DNA of 34,161 nucleotides. It comes from a virus. The stretch's first letter is position 1, and each line of letters starts with the position of its first letter. Below, piece after piece: positions 13,795-27,992 of the stretch. Both the position numbers and the translations under genes were made by a program. The stretch is taken from the IMG/VR virus record IMGVR_UViG_3300021961_009680, positions 1 to 34,161 of that record; one strand, written 5' to 3'. Under the pieces are notes generated by a model. The model worked only from the letters and a program-made list of their open reading frames with translations, was not told the origin of the DNA and made no database searches.

Positions 13795-15573
13795 CTAAAC
13801 TCTTTTTTTACCGAATAACCATAAATAGTTTTGGTAATCACTTTGAGTTAACGTACTTCTACTCATATACATATTATCTACATACCCAACAGGTAATCCA
13901 GGATTAAAGTTTTGAGAAGATTCTTTAAATTCTTTTTTCTCCGTAGACCAAGAATTTAACATCGCTTTTGCTTGTTCTGTCGCTTTTTCTAATTTAGAAA
14001 AAGACGTTTCTGCAACATATAACGCCATAGCCAACGCCATAATTAAATCGTCATGTTGACCTTTTTGGTGATCCGGTTTTCCATTAACATAAACAAAAGT
14101 ATTAAGCTCATTAAATAATCTTTGGGATCTTACTCCAAAATCGTGTCTTAATGCCTCCTCAAAAGCGGCAACTATTTGAACTCTTTTAGAGTTGAAGTTT
14201 ATACCGGGTATTTTTTCATTTGCCTTTGGATCCCACTTCCATTTGTCTGCAAGATTAACACCATCTATATAAAGATTTTTGTAACCTAATTCTTGAAGTT
14301 TTCTTGAAGTTGCGACACCCATACCTCCTGTTATATCTGTCACAATAAATGCATTATACATAGTTGCCCATTTGAATGCGATTTCTGCAACAACATCAGG
14401 TGGGACTTTTGCTAAGTATTCTAAAACCTGTTCCCTTTCATCAAAATCTATTATTGTAAATGTTGTAAAATCTTCACTATCACCTCTAGAAACGTCCATC
14501 CCCATTATGTATTTATGACCCTCTATTGGTTCTTTCCACTGCCAAAGAACCCCACCCATGTACTTATTTTCAGGTTCTTTTAATTGATTATCCTTAATTG
14601 ATTTCATTGTTTCAGGTGGAATAACGTTATCACCAGAACCCAAAAAGTTACATTCAAGTTCCTGAGAAATTTTTCTTCTATCAAACTTTAACTTTTTAGC
14701 CATGGCCTCAAACCAAGAACTATAGGCTTTATACCCCTCGTTTTCTATTTTTTGTTTTATTTCTTGGAAATCTCTGTCACCAACTTTAGTATTGGTATAA
14801 TCTATAGTAATTTCATCGTCTTTATAGTCTGCTCTATTTAACATGTAATGTACAATATCATTACATTTAATTAATTTTAAATCTTTAGAGTATCTAGGAT
14901 CCCTAAACCAATACATTTCAGTAATTCTAAAGTCATTCATTCCTTTAATTGCCTGACTGTATATTGAGTAATATATTGGATCAAATCCATTTGGTGTTGA
15001 AATAACAATCACTTTACCTCCTGTTGATAGGGACGCCATACATGCTGACCAAAAATCTTCGTCGGCATCAATATATGCCGCTTCGTCGAAAATAAGAATC
15101 GTTGGTGTATATCCACGTAACGCATCTTTTGATGTTGCAACCGCCTTTACTTCACAACCGTTAGTTAATTTAAAATGTCTTTGTGAATTTTTTTCATTTG
15201 AAAACGTAACACCCATCCATTTTGGCCATTGGTCAACAAATGCCCTAACTTTATTTGCCATTTCAACGGCAGTATCTAGTTTGTTGGCAATAATTAGAAT
15301 TTTTTCGGGTTTTTCTTTACGGGCAAATACTAATCTTTTTGACGCCCATGCAGAGGTTACTGTTGATACACCAGCCTGTCTATATTTAAGTGCGATATTT
15401 TCTTCACAGGTGTCATAATCTTTTACGAGAGTTACTTGATCGTTAAATAATTCTAATGGAACATATTTTGATTGTGTGTTGTCGTAAGTTTGTAAATATG
15501 TTTTAAGTGCGTATGGTGTATCATTTACGCATTTAGCATATTCTAAAAGTGCTTGTTCTTTTGATAAAGACAT
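13795..15573 (-). CDS. 17: terminase large subunit, T4 gp17 type
   Basis: 592 residues; T4 gp17 has 610. ATPase domain: a Walker A of the displaced-lysine type, ALKYRQAGVST (61-71, with Lys63 before RQxG and Val in place of the usual GK lysine), as in many phage terminases; Walker B LIFDEAA (160-166); and coupling motif ISTPNG (191-196). The RNase H-like nuclease domain follows with MGMDVSRGDSEDF (first acidic site, about 355-367), VTDITGG (second site) and GQHDDLIMALAMA (third site, near 530). It cuts concatemeric DNA and pumps it through the portal. The start is a normal ATG 3 bases after the preceding stop. No small terminase is recognisable nearby; the 184-residue gene upstream is not an obvious candidate. 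Confidence 0.95.
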   Translation of the reverse strand: MSLSKEQALLEYAKCVNDTPYALKTYLQTYDNTQSKYVPLELFNDQVTLVKDYDTCEENIALKYRQAGVSTVTSAWASKRLVFARKEKPEKILIIANKLDTAVEMANKVRAFVDQWPKWMGVTFSNEKNSQRHFKLTNGCEVKAVATSKDALRGYTPTILIFDEAAYIDADEDFWSACMASLSTGGKVIVISTPNGFDPIYYSIYSQAIKGMNDFRITEMYWFRDPRYSKDLKLIKCNDIVHYMLNRADYKDDEITIDYTNTKVGDRDFQEIKQKIENEGYKAYSSWFEAMAKKLKFDRRKISQELECNFLGSGDNVIPPETMKSIKDNQLKEPENKYMGGVLWQWKEPIEGHKYIMGMDVSRGDSEDFTTFTIIDFDEREQVLEYLAKVPPDVVAEIAFKWATMYNAFIVTDITGGMGVATSRKLQELGYKNLYIDGVNLADKWKWDPKANEKIPGINFNSKRVQIVAAFEEALRHDFGVRSQRLFNELNTFVYVNGKPDHQKGQHDDLIMALAMALYVAETSFSKLEKATEQAKAMLNSWSTEKKEFKESSQNFNPGLPVGYVDNMYMSRSTLTQSDYQNYLWLFGKKRV

Positions 15574-19642: not shown

Positions 19643-21688
19643 ATGATTGAATCATTTGACGAATCAGAAAAATCTAAAAATAAAAATACAGAGACAAAAA
19701 CAAAAACACCTGTTTTAGACAACTTTTCAAGAGACCTTATAAAATTAGCAGAAGAGGGAAAATTGGATCCCGTTGTTGGTAGAGAAAATGAGATTAATAG
19801 AATTGCTCAAATTCTTTCAAGAAGAAAAAAAAATAATCCAATTATATTAGGCGAACCAGGTTGTGGTAAAACAGCTATAGTTGAGGGATTAGCTAAAAAA
19901 ATTTTTGAGGGGGATTGTCCTCAAAATTTAGCGGGAAAAAGAATTGTTTCATTAGATATGACCTCAATTGTTGCAGGTACTAAATACAGAGGTCAATTTG
20001 AAGAAAGAATGAAGGTTATAATGGAAGAGTTATATAATAATCCTGATATAATTGTATTCATCGACGAAATACATACGATGATTGGTGCAGGTAACGCCTC
20101 AGGGTCTATGGATGCGTCAAATATCTTTAAACCTGCGCTTTCAAGAGGTGAACTACAGTGTATTGGGGCAACCACACTTGAGGAATACAGAAAAAATATT
20201 GAAAAGGATGGCGCATTAGAAAGAAGATTTCAAAAAGTTATGGTGGACCCATCAACAAAAGAAGAAACTCTACAAATATTAAAAAATGTTAAAGAAAGAT
20301 ATGAAGACCACCATAAAGTCACTTATAGTGATGATATATTAAAATTATGTGTTGAGTTAGCAGATAGATATATTACAGATAGAGAATTCCCTGATAAAGC
20401 TTTTGATATTATTGATGAGGTTGGTGCTAGATCACAAGTAGAAATTAAATTACCTGAAATTATTGAGGATTTAAAAAGACAAGCACAAGAAATAAAAGAA
20501 GAAAAAGTAAAAGTTATTAATAGTCAAAGATATGAGGAAGCAGCAAACCTTAGAGATAAAGAAAGAAAAATTTTAAATGATTTAGAAAGAGAAAAATCTG
20601 AGTTTGAAAAAAATAGAAATTTATTTAAAAGGGAAGTTACTGAAGATGTGGTTTATGACGTAGCATCATTAATTACAAAAATACCTATTTCTAAAATATC
20701 AACGGACGAGACAGAGCAATTAAAAACCCTAAAAGAAACTTTATGTTCTAAAGTAATAGGTCAAGATGACGCCGTATCAAAAATTTCAAGAGCAATCCAA
20801 AGAAATAAAGTTGGTTTAAATGATCCTAAAAAACCAATATTTAGTGGTTTATTAATTGGTAATTCGGGTGTCGGTAAAACTGAGTTAGCAAAACAATTGG
20901 CAAAACATATGTTTAATAGTGAAGATGCATTGATAAGATTAGATATGAGTGAATTTTCAGATAAGATTGCAACATCAAAATTAACAGGAACTTCACCAGG
21001 TTATGTTGGGTATGAGGATGGGTCTCCATTTTTAAATAAAATTAAAAATAAACCTTATTCAGTTATTTTATTAGATGAGATTGAAAAGGCACATCCCGAA
21101 ATATTCAACGTATTTTTACAGATGTTAGATGAAGGATTTTTAACTGATGGTCACGGAAGAAAAATTAATTTCAAAAATTGTATAATATTAATGACCTCTA
21201 ATGTTGGTACTAGAATAGTTCAACAATATGGTACAGGTGTTGGTTTTTCAACAAACACTAAGCAAGAACAAAAAGATGAGGAAATTAAATCAGTATTAGA
21301 AAAAGAATTATTTAAAAAGTTTGCACCTGAATTTATAAATAGATTTGACGAGATAATATACTTTAAAGATCTTACTGAAAATGATTTATTAAAAATTGTA
21401 GAAATTGAATTAGTAAAAGTATATGAAAGAATTAATGGAATTGATTTTGAATTAGAAGTAGAAGAAAGTTTGAAAAAACATATCATTTCTGTAGGTACAG
21501 ACACTAGATTTGGTGCAAGAATATTAAAAAGAACAATTCAAAAGTGGGTTGATGATGCTGTGACTGATAAAATTATTTCCGACAATCCAGAAAAAGGTTC
21601 TAAATTTACATTATCATATAACGAAAAAGATAAAAAAACAGAGGTTAAAATAAAAAAACCCACAAAAAAAAGAAAAAACATTTTGTAG
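19643..21688 (+). CDS. clpC: ClpC-like AAA+ unfoldase lacking the N-domain
   Basis: 681 residues; host ClpC is about 840. The usual 150-residue Clp N repeats are missing: a 25-residue polar start leads straight into [23 protein letters not shown]. First ATPase: Walker A GEPGCGKT (70-77), Walker [10 protein letters not shown] (136-144), arginine-finger region [10 protein letters not shown] (190-199). The short middle domain has a UVR-like helix [14 protein letters not shown] (294-307), as in ClpC and unlike the long ClpB propeller. Second ATPase: GNSGVGKT (406-413), VILLDE (474-479), sensor-2 region GARILKR (624-630). The loop GTGVGFSTN holds VGF (533-535), the ClpP-docking tripeptide of ClpC, so the enzyme should feed host ClpP. 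Loss of the N-domain should remove normal adaptor binding, making the adjacent UVR protein or a phage-specific substrate likely. All catalytic motifs look intact. It ends with a basic tail and TAG. Confidence 0.93.
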
Positions 21689-23831: not shown

Positions 23832-24878
23832 ATGAACCTATCTAAATTCAAAGAGTTACTATCAATCCCTTCTAAAACATATCAAGAAGAAGATATGGTA
23901 GAATATCTTTGTAATGAACTTGACACAATTCCAGGCGTCTCCTACTACCGAGATAATATGATGAATATATATGCAACTAAAGGCGAATTAAACGAAGGTG
24001 AATACTACCCAATGTTTATTGCCCACACGGACACCGTTCATCAAAAGGTAGATAAAATTATCGTAAAAGAAGAGAACCTCATCAGACCAAACACTTTTGG
24101 TAAAACATTTAATAATGATGAGGTTCCGTGTTTGAAGGCATATACCGAAGACGGTAATCCAACAGGTATTGGTGGTGATGATAAATGTGGTATTTTTATC
24201 TGTTTAGAATTACTTAAAACATTAGATAAAGTAAAAATTGGTCTATTTGTTTCAGAAGAAACGGGTTGTCATGGATCTTCAAAATGTGATGAAAACTTCT
24301 TACAAAATGTTGGATACATTACTCAATATGATGCTCCGGGAAATCATTTAATATCCGAGATTTGCTCGGGAGTTCGTTTATTTGATCGTGATAGTGAATT
24401 TTTTATTAAATCAATTGATGTTATTGAAAGGGCATTTGGAAATGAAATGCTTGTTCAATCACACCCATATACTGACATATCACAACTAAAAAAGAAAATT
24501 GATGTTTGTTGTATCAACATGTCTTGTGGTTATTATAACATGCATTCAAACCAAGAATTTGTATCAATAGAGGATGTAAAAAATGCAATTACCGCAGGAT
24601 TAAATATGGTTAAAGAATTGGGTTTAAAAAAATATAAGTACGAATATAAACCAATTGTTTATACACCACAAACTGTTATGAATTCTTTATTACAATTTGA
24701 AGATGATGAAGAAATTGAAGATTACCCTGTTCATCAATTAGAAAGTATTGATGTAATTGAAGAAAAAGATGGTATTACAATATCAGATATTTTTGACGGT
24801 AATAATCTTTTTATAAATGATGATGATTTGGTTTATCTTTATGAGATATTAAAGGAACGTTTTATTTCTAAGTATTGA
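23832..24878 (+). CDS. M20/M28-type zinc metallopeptidase
   Basis: 348 residues, no signal peptide, so cytoplasmic. Two-metal peptidase layout: MFIAHTDTVH gives His65 and catalytic Asp67; GIGGDDKCGIF gives the bridging Asp116; SEETGCHGS gives catalytic Glu142 and metal ligand Glu143; QYDAPG gives Asp167; YYNMHSNQEFV gives His238. SHPYTDISQL (about 210-219) matches the TDA/TDI block of this clan. Such enzymes remove N-terminal residues or cleave di- and tripeptides. In phage context it could recycle peptides made by Clp proteolysis (inference), or cleave a cell-wall peptide if released at lysis. The C-terminal 70 residues (after YKYEYKPIVYTPQ) are extra and acidic. Its end overlaps the convergent 393-residue gene by 30 bases. 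Confidence 0.82.
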   Translation: MNLSKFKELLSIPSKTYQEEDMVEYLCNELDTIPGVSYYRDNMMNIYATKGELNEGEYYPMFIAHTDTVHQKVDKIIVKEENLIRPNTFGKTFNNDEVPCLKAYTEDGNPTGIGGDDKCGIFICLELLKTLDKVKIGLFVSEETGCHGSSKCDENFLQNVGYITQYDAPGNHLISEICSGVRLFDRDSEFFIKSIDVIERAFGNEMLVQSHPYTDISQLKKKIDVCCINMSCGYYNMHSNQEFVSIEDVKNAITAGLNMVKELGLKKYKYEYKPIVYTPQTVMNSLLQFEDDEEIEDYPVHQLESIDVIEEKDGITISDIFDGNNLFINDDDLVYLYEILKERFISKY

Positions 24879-26030
24879 AAATCTATCAATATGTTCCAAC
24901 ATGTTAAATAACTTCTCGTTATAAATCATATTTATTAAACTATCAATATCAGTTTTTCCTACTTTAGTTTGCCACTTATAAGGTTCTTTAATTTTATATT
25001 TAATTAAACTAGTGCTTGGTTCAATATCGCTAATTAATATTTCATATTTACCATCTTTTGTTTTGATCCAAGTATTAATTCCTCCAAGTTGGGATACTTT
25101 ATCAATAACTTCTAAATATTTTTCATCGTAATCTTCAGGATTATTTTGAATGTCTTCTAATTTTTTTTCAAGAACTTCTGTAACTTTTGTATTCCATGTA
25201 GTTTCAAATCTATTGTCATCCCAAAATTCATATTGCATTTCATAATATGCGGGTAAATGTCTAATACCTTCTTTTTTAATTGATTCAAATAATAAATCTA
25301 AAAGTTTGTCTTCATCAGTTCCAAAACGAGCATATAACATCATACAAGACCCCCAATCCATTTCATATTTCCAAAAACAAGTTTTTTTACTATATCTTTC
25401 AACACCAACATTTCTTAAGCAATCACAATACGTTTCTCTAATTCCTTTTGGTATTTCATCTACAACTGCTTGGTAATTAGCGTCAGTGTAAGCCTCTACT
25501 ATATTATCACCAATATTTATTGTATCTAAAAAATCTCTTACTTCAATATTTAATATTCCATCATATTCCTCTTTTTCTTCTAAAACATTTGTTAGTTTTA
25601 TGTATAATCTTGGTGAAATAGTTTTTGTTATATCTCTAATTAATTCTAAATGATTTTTTCTAAAACGATCTGTAACATAACCTTCTCTCCAATCTTCAAC
25701 ATCTCTATCATAAAAATCATTATACCACTCCCAGTTACCCTCATACATTGATTCATAATTACTAGCATCCCATTCACCATCAGTATTATCTTCACCGTAA
25801 TCTTCAGGAAAAAAGAATTGTAAATAATCTTTTAATCCGTCAAAAGTAAAAATTATACCGTCGCGAGTAACTTCAATAATATCATCAAAACTTTTACCAT
25901 CAGATGTTTCAAAAGTAACACCATACGGACTAATTCTATTTTTAGCCAAATACATGATGTTTTTATAATCAGACCAGTTGTCAGGGTCTTCTTCATGATC
26001 GTTTTCGAAAATAAACTTTTTTTTCAACAT
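24849..26030 (-). CDS. large acidic hypothetical protein
   Basis: 393 residues, acidic, rich in Trp, Tyr, Asp and Glu, no family recognised. It starts MLKKKFIFENDHEEDPDNW; middle segments include WDASNYESMYEGNWEWYNDF and a Cys-containing stretch (YCDCLRNVGVERYSKKTCFWKYEMDWGSC). Soluble, with no signal peptide or membrane span. It overlaps the metallopeptidase by 30 bases tail to tail, and its start lies only 5 bases from a TATTTATA octamer (26036-26043). It is probably a phage-specific intracellular protein; nothing supports a specific role. Confidence 0.6.
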   Translation of the reverse strand: MLKKKFIFENDHEEDPDNWSDYKNIMYLAKNRISPYGVTFETSDGKSFDDIIEVTRDGIIFTFDGLKDYLQFFFPEDYGEDNTDGEWDASNYESMYEGNWEWYNDFYDRDVEDWREGYVTDRFRKNHLELIRDITKTISPRLYIKLTNVLEEKEEYDGILNIEVRDFLDTINIGDNIVEAYTDANYQAVVDEIPKGIRETYCDCLRNVGVERYSKKTCFWKYEMDWGSCMMLYARFGTDEDKLLDLLFESIKKEGIRHLPAYYEMQYEFWDDNRFETTWNTKVTEVLEKKLEDIQNNPEDYDEKYLEVIDKVSQLGGINTWIKTKDGKYEILISDIEPSTSLIKYKIKEPYKWQTKVGKTDIDSLINMIYNEKLFNMLEHIDRFSILRNKTFL

Positions 26031-26045
26031 ATTTATATAAATATA

Positions 26046-26076
26046 TTGGATAATAGAAACAAATATATTATCTTTG
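26046..26076 (+). promoter_or_regulatory. Bacteroidetes promoter for tmRNA
   Basis: TTG at 26046-26048 and TATCTTTG (26069-26076), an exact TAnnTTTG match, 20 bases apart. Transcription would start near 26082, giving a 30-base 5' leader that RNase P would remove to make the mature tmRNA end at 26112. Confidence 0.65.
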
Positions 26077-26111: not shown

Positions 26112-26519
26112 GGGCCTATAATGGATTTGACGGGCATTGGTTGAATAAAAGAAGCATGTCGGGACTGAATTAATCTCGTTAAAAACTGATTCACACTACA
26201 AATGGCAATGTGCTAAACAACCTTGAGACTTTGGGTCTAATCTCAACTCAAGAAGTAACTGTAGCTTAAGAAGTTTACGGATACGCGAGCCGGTTCACAT
26301 ACGCTCAGGAACAGAAGTGACTAAGGTAGATTACCACTAAACCCGAAATTGAGTGGTCTATTGGTTTTTGGTTTACGATAGTGAAGAACAAACCATACTT
26401 GTTTTTGATCAAGATAAAATCAAATATTTTGGGGTGTTAGAAAACACCAACCTAAACATGTAGGTGTCTTTTAAACAAGATGATCTGGACGAGGGAGTCG
26501 GAGCCCTCTAGGTCCACCA
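26112..26519 (+). ncRNA. ssrA: tmRNA (transfer-messenger RNA), phage-encoded
   Basis: About 408 bases. The acceptor stem GGGCCTA (26112-26118) pairs with TAGGTCC (26509-26515), including the G3-U70 wobble that alanyl-tRNA synthetase requires, followed by discriminator A and an encoded CCA (26517-26519). The D-domain GGATTTGACGGG is nearly canonical. Helix 2 is supported by AAAAGA (26147-26152) with TCTTTT (26467-26472) and GCATGT (26154-26159) with ACATGT (26456-26461). Pseudoknot 1: CGGGA (26160-26164) with TCTCG (26174-26178), and TGAATT (26166-26171) with GATTCA (26188-26193). Further pairing such as GAGC with GCTC near 26287-26309 suggests pseudoknot 2. The T-arm stem is GAGGG with CCCTC, but its loop is eight bases (AGTCGGAG), not TTCRANY. 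tmRNA with SmpB rescues stalled ribosomes and tags the nascent chain for proteolysis. No SmpB gene is in the window. Confidence 0.93.
26204..26269 (+). other. predicted tmRNA tag reading frame (21 codons)
   Basis: Ten bases after pseudoknot 1 a GGC codon opens a frame reading GNVLNNLETL, then GLISTQEVTVA, then TAA (26267-26269). Gly as resume codon fits Bacteroidetes tmRNA, and the TAA sits in the loop of a short hairpin GTAACT with AGTTTAC (26255-26278), as the stop does in helix 5 of other tmRNAs. The tag is about twice the usual length and ends VTVA, not ALAA. A hairpin CTTGAG with CTCAAG (26222-26252) lies inside the frame and may be an insertion. The frame choice is inference. Confidence 0.5.
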
Positions 26520-26522
26520 CTT

Positions 26523-26553
26523 AACCCACTATTTTATTATGGTGGGTTTTTTT
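26523..26553 (+). terminator. tmRNA terminator
   Basis: Seven-base arms AACCCAC (26523-26529) and GTGGGTT (26542-26548), followed by a T run, starting four bases after the CCA end. Confidence 0.85.
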
Positions 26554-26599
26554 ATTTAAATTTTTGTGGAGACGGACTACTTTTTTGTGGAGATGTGGA

Positions 26600-26607
26600 T
26601 ATTTATA
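26600..26607 (+). promoter_or_regulatory. TATTTATA octamer upstream of HNH gene
   Basis: Plus-strand GATATTTATATAATAAAG; the octamer ends 11 bases before the ATG at 26619. Same sense orientation as for the minus-strand genes. Confidence 0.35.
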
Positions 26608-26618
26608 TAATAAAGATC

Positions 26619-27158
26619 ATGGCAAATAGAAAAAAAGAATTAGTGGTGTGCTCAAATCCTGAATGTAAAAAAGAATTTTACAAAGATTCATCTGAAGTTA
26701 CAAGAAATAAAAAAATTGGTAGAAAAAATCATTGCTCTTTAAAGTGTTGTGGTCATACAAGTCACGAACATTTAAAAAAGTATAGTAAAGAAAATGTGAA
26801 ATACTTATTACCTCACTGCGGTAATATGAGAGACAATTTCACCGGATTAAGAGAACATTTCAGAAGGATTAAAAAAAGAAAACATTATTACGATGTTGGG
26901 TTAGAAGATTTATTAGAATTATGGAACAACCAAAAGGGTATTTGCCCATATAGTGGGGTTAAATTATTACATCCAAACGAAGGTGGTAATAATTTAAATA
27001 CAGCATCTTTAGATAGAATTGATAGTAAAATAGGTTATGTTAAAGGAAACTTACAGTTTATTAGTATCATTTGTAACCAAGCAAAGAACAGCCTTACACA
27101 TGAAGAAATGTTAACTTTCTTAAAAACGGTATGTGATTTTTATTCAAAAAAAGAATAA
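26619..27158 (+). CDS. HNH endonuclease
   Basis: 179 residues from the ATG at 26619 (MANRKKELVVCSNPECKKEF). An upstream in-frame GTG at 26595 would translate through the TATTTATA element, so I reject it. The N-terminus has Cys pairs (VCSNPEC, HCSLKC) like a zinc knuckle for DNA binding. The HNH core is CPYSGVKLLHP, then TASLDRIDSKIGYVKGNLQFIS, then CNQAKNSLTHEEM, typical of phage homing-type HNH enzymes (LDRID with K-GYV-GN-Q). It begins 100 bases after the tmRNA end. Free-standing HNH genes often home next to conserved phage genes, so it may have entered here beside the tmRNA. It has its own promoter-like element and shares a bidirectional terminator with the lipoprotein gene. Confidence 0.88.
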   Translation: MANRKKELVVCSNPECKKEFYKDSSEVTRNKKIGRKNHCSLKCCGHTSHEHLKKYSKENVKYLLPHCGNMRDNFTGLREHFRRIKKRKHYYDVGLEDLLELWNNQKGICPYSGVKLLHPNEGGNNLNTASLDRIDSKIGYVKGNLQFISIICNQAKNSLTHEEMLTFLKTVCDFYSKKE

Positions 27159-27503: not shown

Positions 27504-27992
27504 ATGCAAACATTTCTTCCTTATTCTGATTTCAGAAAATCATTAGAGTCTTTAGACAATAAACGTCTTGGTAAACAACGTGTTGAGGCTTATCAAATTA
27601 TATCGGCAATTACAGGTCGTTTACGTAAAGATGGTAAACCTTACAAGGGTTGGTTAAACCACCCATGTTCAGTAATGTGGCGTGATTATGTAAACGCCCT
27701 CAAACAATATTACAACGACTGTATTGACGTATGGAAAGAACGTGGTTTCAAAAATACTATGGAATATGAAACAATTGAGGGTGAATTTATCTTACCTAAT
27801 TGGTTAGGTTGTGAAGAATTTCATTCATCTCATAGGGCAAATTTATTACGTAAAGATTTTGATTACTATTCTAAACACGGTTGGACTGAAAATCCTGAAG
27901 ATCCTTATGTGTGGTTAGACGATAAGAATATGTGGTATAAACAAATGGTTGGTAGTAAAGAACGTTTGTTTTTTAAACCTGAATTAGTTTAA
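27504..27992 (+). CDS. pyrimidine-dimer DNA glycosylase family protein
   Basis: 162 residues. The N-terminus MQTFLPYSDFRKSLESLDNK, then RLGKQRVEAYQI, followed by GWLNHPCSVMWRDYVNAL and later PNWLGCEEFHSSHRANLLRKD, is the signature of the Pyr_excise family and its bacterial MSMEG_6728-like branch, related to T4 endonuclease V (DenV). The T4 enzyme cleaves the glycosyl bond of UV-induced pyrimidine dimers and nicks the strand; here the role is repair of phage DNA after light damage, consistent with a phage of surface waters or other lit habitats (inference). The second residue after Met is Gln rather than the Thr nucleophile of DenV, so the exact chemistry is open. It overlaps the convergent 172-residue gene at the stop codons. 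Confidence 0.85.
   Translation: MQTFLPYSDFRKSLESLDNKRLGKQRVEAYQIISAITGRLRKDGKPYKGWLNHPCSVMWRDYVNALKQYYNDCIDVWKERGFKNTMEYETIEGEFILPNWLGCEEFHSSHRANLLRKDFDYYSKHGWTENPEDPYVWLDDKNMWYKQMVGSKERLFFKPELV

Follow-up and report, generated by a model that had tools for sequence, protein, structure and literature searches.

Transfer-messenger RNA (tmRNA) is charged by alanyl-tRNA synthetase (AlaRS), enters the ribosome with SmpB and directs resumption of translation on its own tag reading frame. An earlier description of phage copies as uncommon agrees with the part of a published survey available to us, in which 402 of 18,146 phage genomes, 2.3% of public genomes, carry the gene (PMC9004378). Such phage-borne tmRNAs, to which the one described here belongs, occur in Bacillus phage G, mycobacteriophages (Bxz1), Melnitz-like marine phages, huge phages and Maribacter phage Panino; in the portions of these sources we consulted, tmRNA-bearing phages are listed (PMC4131195) and huge phages are said to carry both tmRNA and SmpB, Al-Shayeb et al. 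having assigned the tmRNAs with ARAGORN (PMC7162821). As far as those accounts go, Melnitz tmRNA is a two-piece form, unlike the one-piece RNA here (PMC9004378), and Panino, a Bacteroidota phage with tmRNA, differs in being a podovirus with an integrase (PMC11590407). The tag of phage G, 13 residues ending LQVA by ARAGORN, also departs from the LAA type, and is unrelated in sequence to the tag described below. In the literature text at hand, no known phage tmRNA is described as linked with a phage-encoded Clp ATPase and a peptidase, and the role of phage tmRNAs attracts several guesses and no test. A cellular parallel is the extended ssrA tag of Mycoplasma and Mesoplasma, reportedly the subject of Gur and Sauer (2008) and of Ge and Karzai (2009). 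There, too, a longer tag with a changed end is matched to a different protease, Lon reading it instead of ClpXP in Mycoplasma relatives according to the part of one account we saw (PMC9382460). That cell lacks active ClpXP, whereas in the present case tag and unfoldase would both be supplied by a virus.

Our analysis of a 34,161-base stretch of viral DNA (the window; coordinates are on its plus strand unless stated) and its relatives describes a tmRNA gene whose identity, tag frame, conservation and linkage to a clp gene are all directly visible. We propose, with a probability of about 0.55, that this is a working phage tmRNA that relies on host SmpB and AlaRS, and that its phage-specific tag is degraded through a phage Clp ATPase together with ClpP. 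While phage tmRNAs as such are known, the tag family and the clp - peptidase - tmRNA gene order appear to be new, since we found no report of either in the open-access literature, a search that is weak evidence of absence.

The first-pass annotation had claimed a complete tmRNA gene at 26112-26519, and the Rfam model RF00023 matches exactly that span (ssrA, 408 nt; plus strand; the untruncated match spans model positions 1-374 and scores 78.4 bits, with a gathering score of 47 and an E-value of 5.2e-29). This is the sole Rfam match at gathering score in the window, and no second tmRNA was found in its 34,161-base IMG/VR virus record. Of the two programs that had been named for checking the gene, the Rfam covariance search scored above its cut-off, and ARAGORN stayed silent, calling no tmRNA on the window. 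The acceptor stem with G3-U70 and the encoded CCA are present as described: GGGCCTA (26112-26118) pairs with TAGGTCC (26509-26515) to give GGGCCUA/UAGGUCC, and ACCA follows, ending at 26519. The D-domain claimed, GGAUUUGAC, was likewise found, its motif GGATTTGAC lying at 26123-26131 behind a 4-nt acceptor-to-D linker. Pseudoknot 1 (PK1; CGGGA/TCTCG and TGAATTA/TGATTCA, 26160-26193) is borne out by compensatory pair changes among relatives, pair 1 of its first stem being C-G in 30, A-U in 21 and G-C in 22 of the 73 sequences parsed out of 88, where the parse required at least 4 of 5 stem pairs. Helix 2, also claimed, and PK2-PK4 appear in the Rfam alignment only, whose mean accuracy is 0.61 and which is weak in the middle. 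The region of PK2-PK4, from the tag to the 3' end, looks modular and exchanged between differing acceptor types (L126, L103, L109 and the window).

Relatives were fetched by portal similarity (80 loci kept), by the Clp ATPase (80 kept), by a 393-aa neighbouring protein (20) and by the tag pattern (at least 120 stretches). An HMM built from 16 tmRNAs was searched with nhmmer against 310 sequences, namely 309 loci and the window, and matched 190, including the window and its own excerpt (L001, the window itself), many loci repeating one contig; all 120 viral tag-pattern stretches listed, of at least 120, are among the matches. The parser, which accepted only loci whose acceptor and T stem pair throughout, resolved 188 of the 227 viral loci. 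Eight parses with interrupted, truncated or misread ends were dropped as spurious (L088, L143, L169, L198, L215, L243, L295 and L391), leaving 180 loci with 88 distinct sequences, same-contig repeats and the window included, and placing 39 of the 227 loci, many cut by contig ends, outside the parse counts. G1-C72, G2-C71 and G3-U70 are invariant in all 180 resolved loci (88 distinct sequences), and acceptor pairs 4-7 and the T stem vary with compensatory changes; the parser imposes the pairing of these stems, but not the fixed G3-U70. ACCA is encoded in 133 of the 180. Contigs of 270-305 kb contain several of the relatives, so that the phage family is probably jumbo-sized and the window a fragment.

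The T-arm departs from expectation. It reads GAGGG - AGTCGGAG - CCCTC (26491-26508), and its 8-nt loop AGUCGGAG (26496-26503) is non-canonical, without the UUC start of a 7-nt UUCRA-type loop. We treat this AGTC loop as a variant within the tmRNA family because the stem still pairs and the model score holds. It may contribute to the silence of ARAGORN, and it could lower the activity of the tmRNA. The same features, the missing UUC start and the absence of an ARAGORN call, could instead mark a dead, decayed gene, which we regard as the least credible of the readings considered: loops of the form AGTC[GA][GA]AG recur in 62 of the 180 loci, on differing stems and acceptors and with a 4-nt linker in all 62, the acceptor, PK1 and tag are maintained, and some relatives whose T-loop is canonical, L090 for example, escape ARAGORN too. 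Among the features expected of an RF00023 tmRNA, the gathering score is exceeded and the acceptor stem, PK1, the A at position -4 and an open tag frame are all in place. The remaining 118 loci have 7-nt TTCGANN T-loops and linkers of 4-6 nt. The T-arm pattern of the window matched once in 148 Bacteroidota genomes, against three matches for the reversed control, and in this single match the stem is unpaired and the contig is not the one that carries the tmRNA of that genome. Across 30 phage tmRNA loci (some of them overlapping records) ARAGORN called five, two with a full tag, and for this reason the rarity of phage tmRNA may be overstated. Our best reading of the sequence is that the gene encodes a genuine, one-piece and working tmRNA, presumably active in infection.

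The gene also appears to be an independent transcription unit. A Bacteroidota-type promoter, in keeping with the host-type promoter noted earlier, precedes it at 26046-26076 (TTGG at 26046-26049, a 19-nt spacer and TATCTTTG at 26069-26076), a TTGG-N19-TATCTTTG arrangement of the Bacteroidota consensus type. TAnnTTTG is found in 70 of 78 distinct 90-nt stretches upstream of the related tmRNAs, compared with 9.5 in mononucleotide shuffles, and TT(T)G stands 17-22 nt before it in 69 distinct upstreams. The expected intrinsic terminator lies directly 3' of the gene (10-pair stem followed by a T-run, 26523-26548), and a terminator scan covering both strands of the region yielded two sites, compared with 0.2 for shuffled sequence. 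The TAnnTTTG promoters and the group I intron that one relative carries at T-loop position 3 are indirect evidence that makes a Bacteroidota host likely. In that relative, a 281-kb phage record (G002), the intron splits the tmRNA T-loop after its second base (L143:14192-14816; RF00028, 92.7 bits, model match 14531-14783). Introns at this position have been reported only from class Bacteroidia, going by the part of the source we saw (PMC11915505), and the site hints at intron exchange between phage and host. Directly downstream of the window's tmRNA lies an endonuclease-VII-like gene (26595-27158), and a relative of it with 62% identity follows the intron-split tmRNA (L143:14941-15486); one may speculate that its product is a homing endonuclease with the tmRNA as target and that altered T-loops might resist it.

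The window encodes a terminase, a portal and a major head protein of T4-type families, which upholds the earlier proposal of a T4-like phage. Among isolated phages, Flavobacterium phage immuto, whose annotation names a T4-like gp20, and Rhodothermus phage RM378 have portals related to its own. A chimera with a host chromosome, raised earlier as a possible objection, is very unlikely because 41 phage loci share this gene order. The window also holds a pyrimidine dimer DNA glycosylase gene (27504-27992, Pfam Pyr_excise) that is 75% identical across 103 bases of DNA to LR756501 and LR756503, two phages of 735 kb. Since tmRNA genes are frequent integration sites, as the parts of two reports available to us state (PMC11915505, PMC11590407), the gene might be an attachment-site relic or a passenger from an ancestral integration in ssrA; we hold this to be very improbable, as a search confined to the tyrosine type found an integrase in 0 of 20 records, the place of the gene is conserved in 41 loci and its tag is under selection.

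The tag reading frame, overlooked in the first-pass annotation, is the most unusual part of this tmRNA. It encodes GNVLNNLETLGLISTQEVTVA (21 residues) followed by TAA (26204-26269), and its resume codon, GGC at 26204, stands 10 nt past PK1. A frame of this pattern is found in all 88 distinct resolved sequences, with 21 residues in 86 and 22 in two; the length and the G1, G11-L12 and last A of the pattern are partly imposed, as the search expressions demand G1, G11-L12, a final A and narrow length limits. The base at -4 to the resume codon is A in 88 of 88 distinct sequences while -1, -2 and -3 vary, and in E. coli the corresponding base, A86, is the main determinant of the tag frame in the portion of the study we consulted (PMC2481249). 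Selection on the peptide is evident from 52 distinct tag DNA sequences, in which entropy at codon positions 1, 2 and 3 is 0.83, 0.44 and 1.15 and the two other frames are open in just 1 and 5 of the 52, and from a pN/pS of 0.41 (pairs with at most 18 differences). For L157 and L384 ARAGORN reads all 21 residues in this frame, for L132 and L375 part of the tag and for L103 a different frame. Four records chosen by portal, for which the reading required just a GG start and 15-30 codons to a stop, give GETFAKLQAVGLLRTEEVYAA, GNTFAKLQAVGLLRTEEVTVA, GNVLNKMALVGLVRQDELVNVA and GNVLNKMAACGLIREEAAVVA, which share the pattern and end in VYAA, VTVA, VNVA and AVVA. The tag was found in 66 of 70 loci that were fetched by Clp or 393-aa similarity and have a tmRNA match; among the other four, two (one contig) are internally deleted and two are cut by the contig end. 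The deletion, from L088:16308 onward on the contig shared with L169, begins inside the tag and extends almost to the 3' end of the tmRNA, so that the tmRNA may at times be dispensable or the contig misassembled.

Compared with the one-piece tmRNA of Bacteroidota (RF00023), the phage RNA shares G3-U70, the D-domain, PK1, the A at -4, the stop codon and the encoded CCA, and its tag starts with Gly, as do many Bacteroidota tags. It differs in its 8-nt AGUCGGAG T-loop, in its 4-nt linker and, above all, in its tag. Among 47 Bacteroidota tmRNA loci, comprising the best-scoring 30 and others that were hand-picked or chance pattern matches, ARAGORN could read 42 tags, and all 42 have 9-10 residues and end in LAA or MAA. 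The phage tag has 21 and ends in VTVA, without the LAA-type ClpX signal, an ending that is typical of tmRNA tags and not defining for a tmRNA. The tag pattern occurs in 10 stretches of 84,980 bacterial and archaeal species genomes, none of them a tmRNA by HMM, and in none of the bacterial tmRNAs examined; tblastn of two tag peptides against 50,697 phage records, which can detect near-perfect matches only, returned nothing. A second tmRNA copy in a Bacteroidota genome, weaker at 49.3 bits (L354, G126:C1:772761-773172), was considered as a host counterpart and set aside because its tag reads GENNYALAA by eye, unlike the phage genes. An amphipathic-helix reading of the tag was dropped because the hydrophobic moment is no better than that of shuffles in 5 of 5 tags (P 0.22-0.76).

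The departure from the LAA/MAA end of all 42 readable host tags could also mean that the tag protects or redirects, the phage tmRNA outcompeting that of the host for SmpB so that its products are spared host ClpXP or sent elsewhere. A precedent for interference is the tRNA-like-only form, as in phage DS6A, which is reported to inhibit host tmRNA in the passages we consulted (PMC4131195, PMC11915505), and the 484-kb phage LR756508 has a short form of this kind beside a full tmRNA. In LR756508.1 the tRNA-like-only tmRNA is a separate gene of 112 nt (L373:1501-1612), and the full tmRNA (L369:1501-1947) has a tag of about 36 residues ending in AAV by eye, which ARAGORN reads otherwise. Against a protective tag, the tight association of the gene with those for a Clp ATPase and a peptidase speaks for degradation, the tag has no known receptor, and 0 of 32 window ORFs end like it, a count that also disposes of mimicry of phage protein ends. 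We therefore judge protection or redirection improbable.

The linkage begins with a Clp ATPase of 681 aa (19643-21688), whose best PDB match is ClpC (6em9, E 1.7e-202, aligned over ClpC residues 149-806), with alignment in D1, the middle region, D2 and the GF loop. Two AAA domains are present by Pfam (AAA_2, AAA_lid_9, ClpB_D2-small), and a VGF loop stands in D2; 78 of 80 homologues show [VI]GF, which we take to be the ClpP-docking tripeptide, and for the remaining two the alignment stops short of it. Unlike ClpC, the phage protein has no N-terminal adaptor domain, the alignment starting at ClpC residue 149, and we therefore describe it as a ClpC-like D1-D2 core and do not file it as ClpC. It reaches none of the listed NCBIfam Clp cut-offs, the best-scoring model being ClpB, which is not a ClpP partner. 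A metallopeptidase of the M20/M42 type follows (348 aa, 23832-24878; Pfam M42, 28.1 bits with a cut-off of 23.2), in which HTD, GGD, EE and a late H are invariant in all 21 aligned sequences, presumably as the HxD, D, EE and H of the M20/M42 metal site. Between it and the tmRNA, and divergent from the latter, the minus strand encodes a 393-aa protein (24849-26030; found in 34 of 41 loci; structure model pLDDT 87.4). As a candidate tag adaptor it gave no PDB fold match at E<=0.001, and another candidate, a 174-aa gene after clp, belongs to no family and was found just in the near-identical L082 of 43 loci.

Gene order in the relatives is consistent. Both clp and tmRNA were found in 41 of 43 loci searched, 1.7-5.6 kb apart in all 41, and the metallopeptidase lies between them in 41 of 41, on the same strand in 27 and inverted in 14; the 43 were chosen for holding both genes, two huge phages excepted, and the 41 include a few pairs that are nearly identical (L103/L438, L133/L445). 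As an unselected check, we took the 80 loci retrieved by Clp similarity with no other condition: 52 carry the tmRNA on the clp strand, 2.1-5.6 kb downstream, and in the remaining 28 the sequence available past clp is shorter than 6 kb, so that no Clp locus with at least 6 kb downstream lacks it. Conversely, 20 of 20 tested records from 118 newly fetched tag-pattern loci contain the Clp gene. A test for both genes in 26 records found tmRNA together with Clp in 18 (in one an intron-split tmRNA scores 45.1, below cut-off), Clp only in three and neither in five, a weak 38-residue Clp match being counted as none. The Clp-only records are a contig ending 2.4 kb past the Clp gene and two huge phages of 634-642 kb with no tmRNA above cut-off; in the 484-kb phage LR756508 the two genes are far apart. 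Genes on the other side of clp are also conserved across loci, and the synteny may thus just reflect a conserved genome backbone. The Clp gene itself is interrupted in places by insertions of about 0.5 or 1.7 kb (L137:10237-10712, L138:10243-10723, L143:8315-10001 and, in Clp-forward orientation, L430:3313-4960) that have no Rfam match at gathering score. A GOLLD RNA (RF02032, 321 bits) lies at L430:2667-3075 of the 296-kb record G177, in the same 15-kb stretch as a phage tmRNA.

The position of the Clp gene near head genes, together with its best NCBIfam model being the chaperone ClpB, feeds the main rival to our proposal. In that account the tmRNA provides supplementary rescue only, tagged proteins go to host ClpXP, the tag has drifted, both in sequence and in length, inside the limits set by ClpX, and the Clp protein does another job, for example as a head-assembly chaperone. 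Host ClpXP might read the phage tag because its VTVA end is similar to LVA, which according to the excerpt of the source we saw serves as a variant degradation tag in E. coli (PMC9382460), and V-T-V-A keeps a small or hydrophobic C-terminal end. Drift, however, is hard to square with a tag that is conserved as protein at the pN/pS given above and with a length of 21-22 residues, itself partly imposed by the pattern, and none of the 42 host tags read resembles it. This account seems to us unlikely, though a serious contender.

We posit instead that the phage tag most likely acts as a degron for the phage's own Clp, given its conserved sequence and its non-LAA end. Its own host-type promoter would drive transcription of the tmRNA, host AlaRS would add alanine to it through G3-U70, and host SmpB would carry it into stalled ribosomes, since an SmpB gene was found in 0 of the 20 phage records searched. 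The ribosome would resume on GGC and add the 21-residue phage-type tag instead of an LAA/MAA host tag, and the N-domain-less ClpC-like unfoldase would then read this tag and dock on ClpP, either that of the host or, in a few relatives, a phage ClpP (present in 5 of 22 records: 2 of the 19 from IMG/VR and 3 huge phages). The neighbouring metallopeptidase may trim the released peptides. In this way ribosomes would be freed and amino acids recycled from unfinished proteins under phage control. The steps from tag to Clp, ClpP and peptidase, like activity in infection, are what we infer from tag conservation, the non-host end and the neighbouring genes. The earlier suggestion that the phage may retag products for its own proteolysis gains support from a tag found only in phages among the genomes searched and from the phage Clp ATPase nearby. 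More tentatively still, and with odds we would put below even, jumbo T4-like phages might split protein quality control from that of the host, a phage unfoldase with host ClpP reading only the phage tag.

These observations bear on how phage tmRNAs are counted and on what they may do. Surveys based on ARAGORN would undercount them, because the program mostly misses this class, many of whose members have an AGUC-type T-loop. With a tag that is conserved as protein, was not found in the host genomes searched and is encoded near an unfoldase with a presumed ClpP-docking loop, whether a phage tag feeds a phage-controlled protease becomes a testable question.
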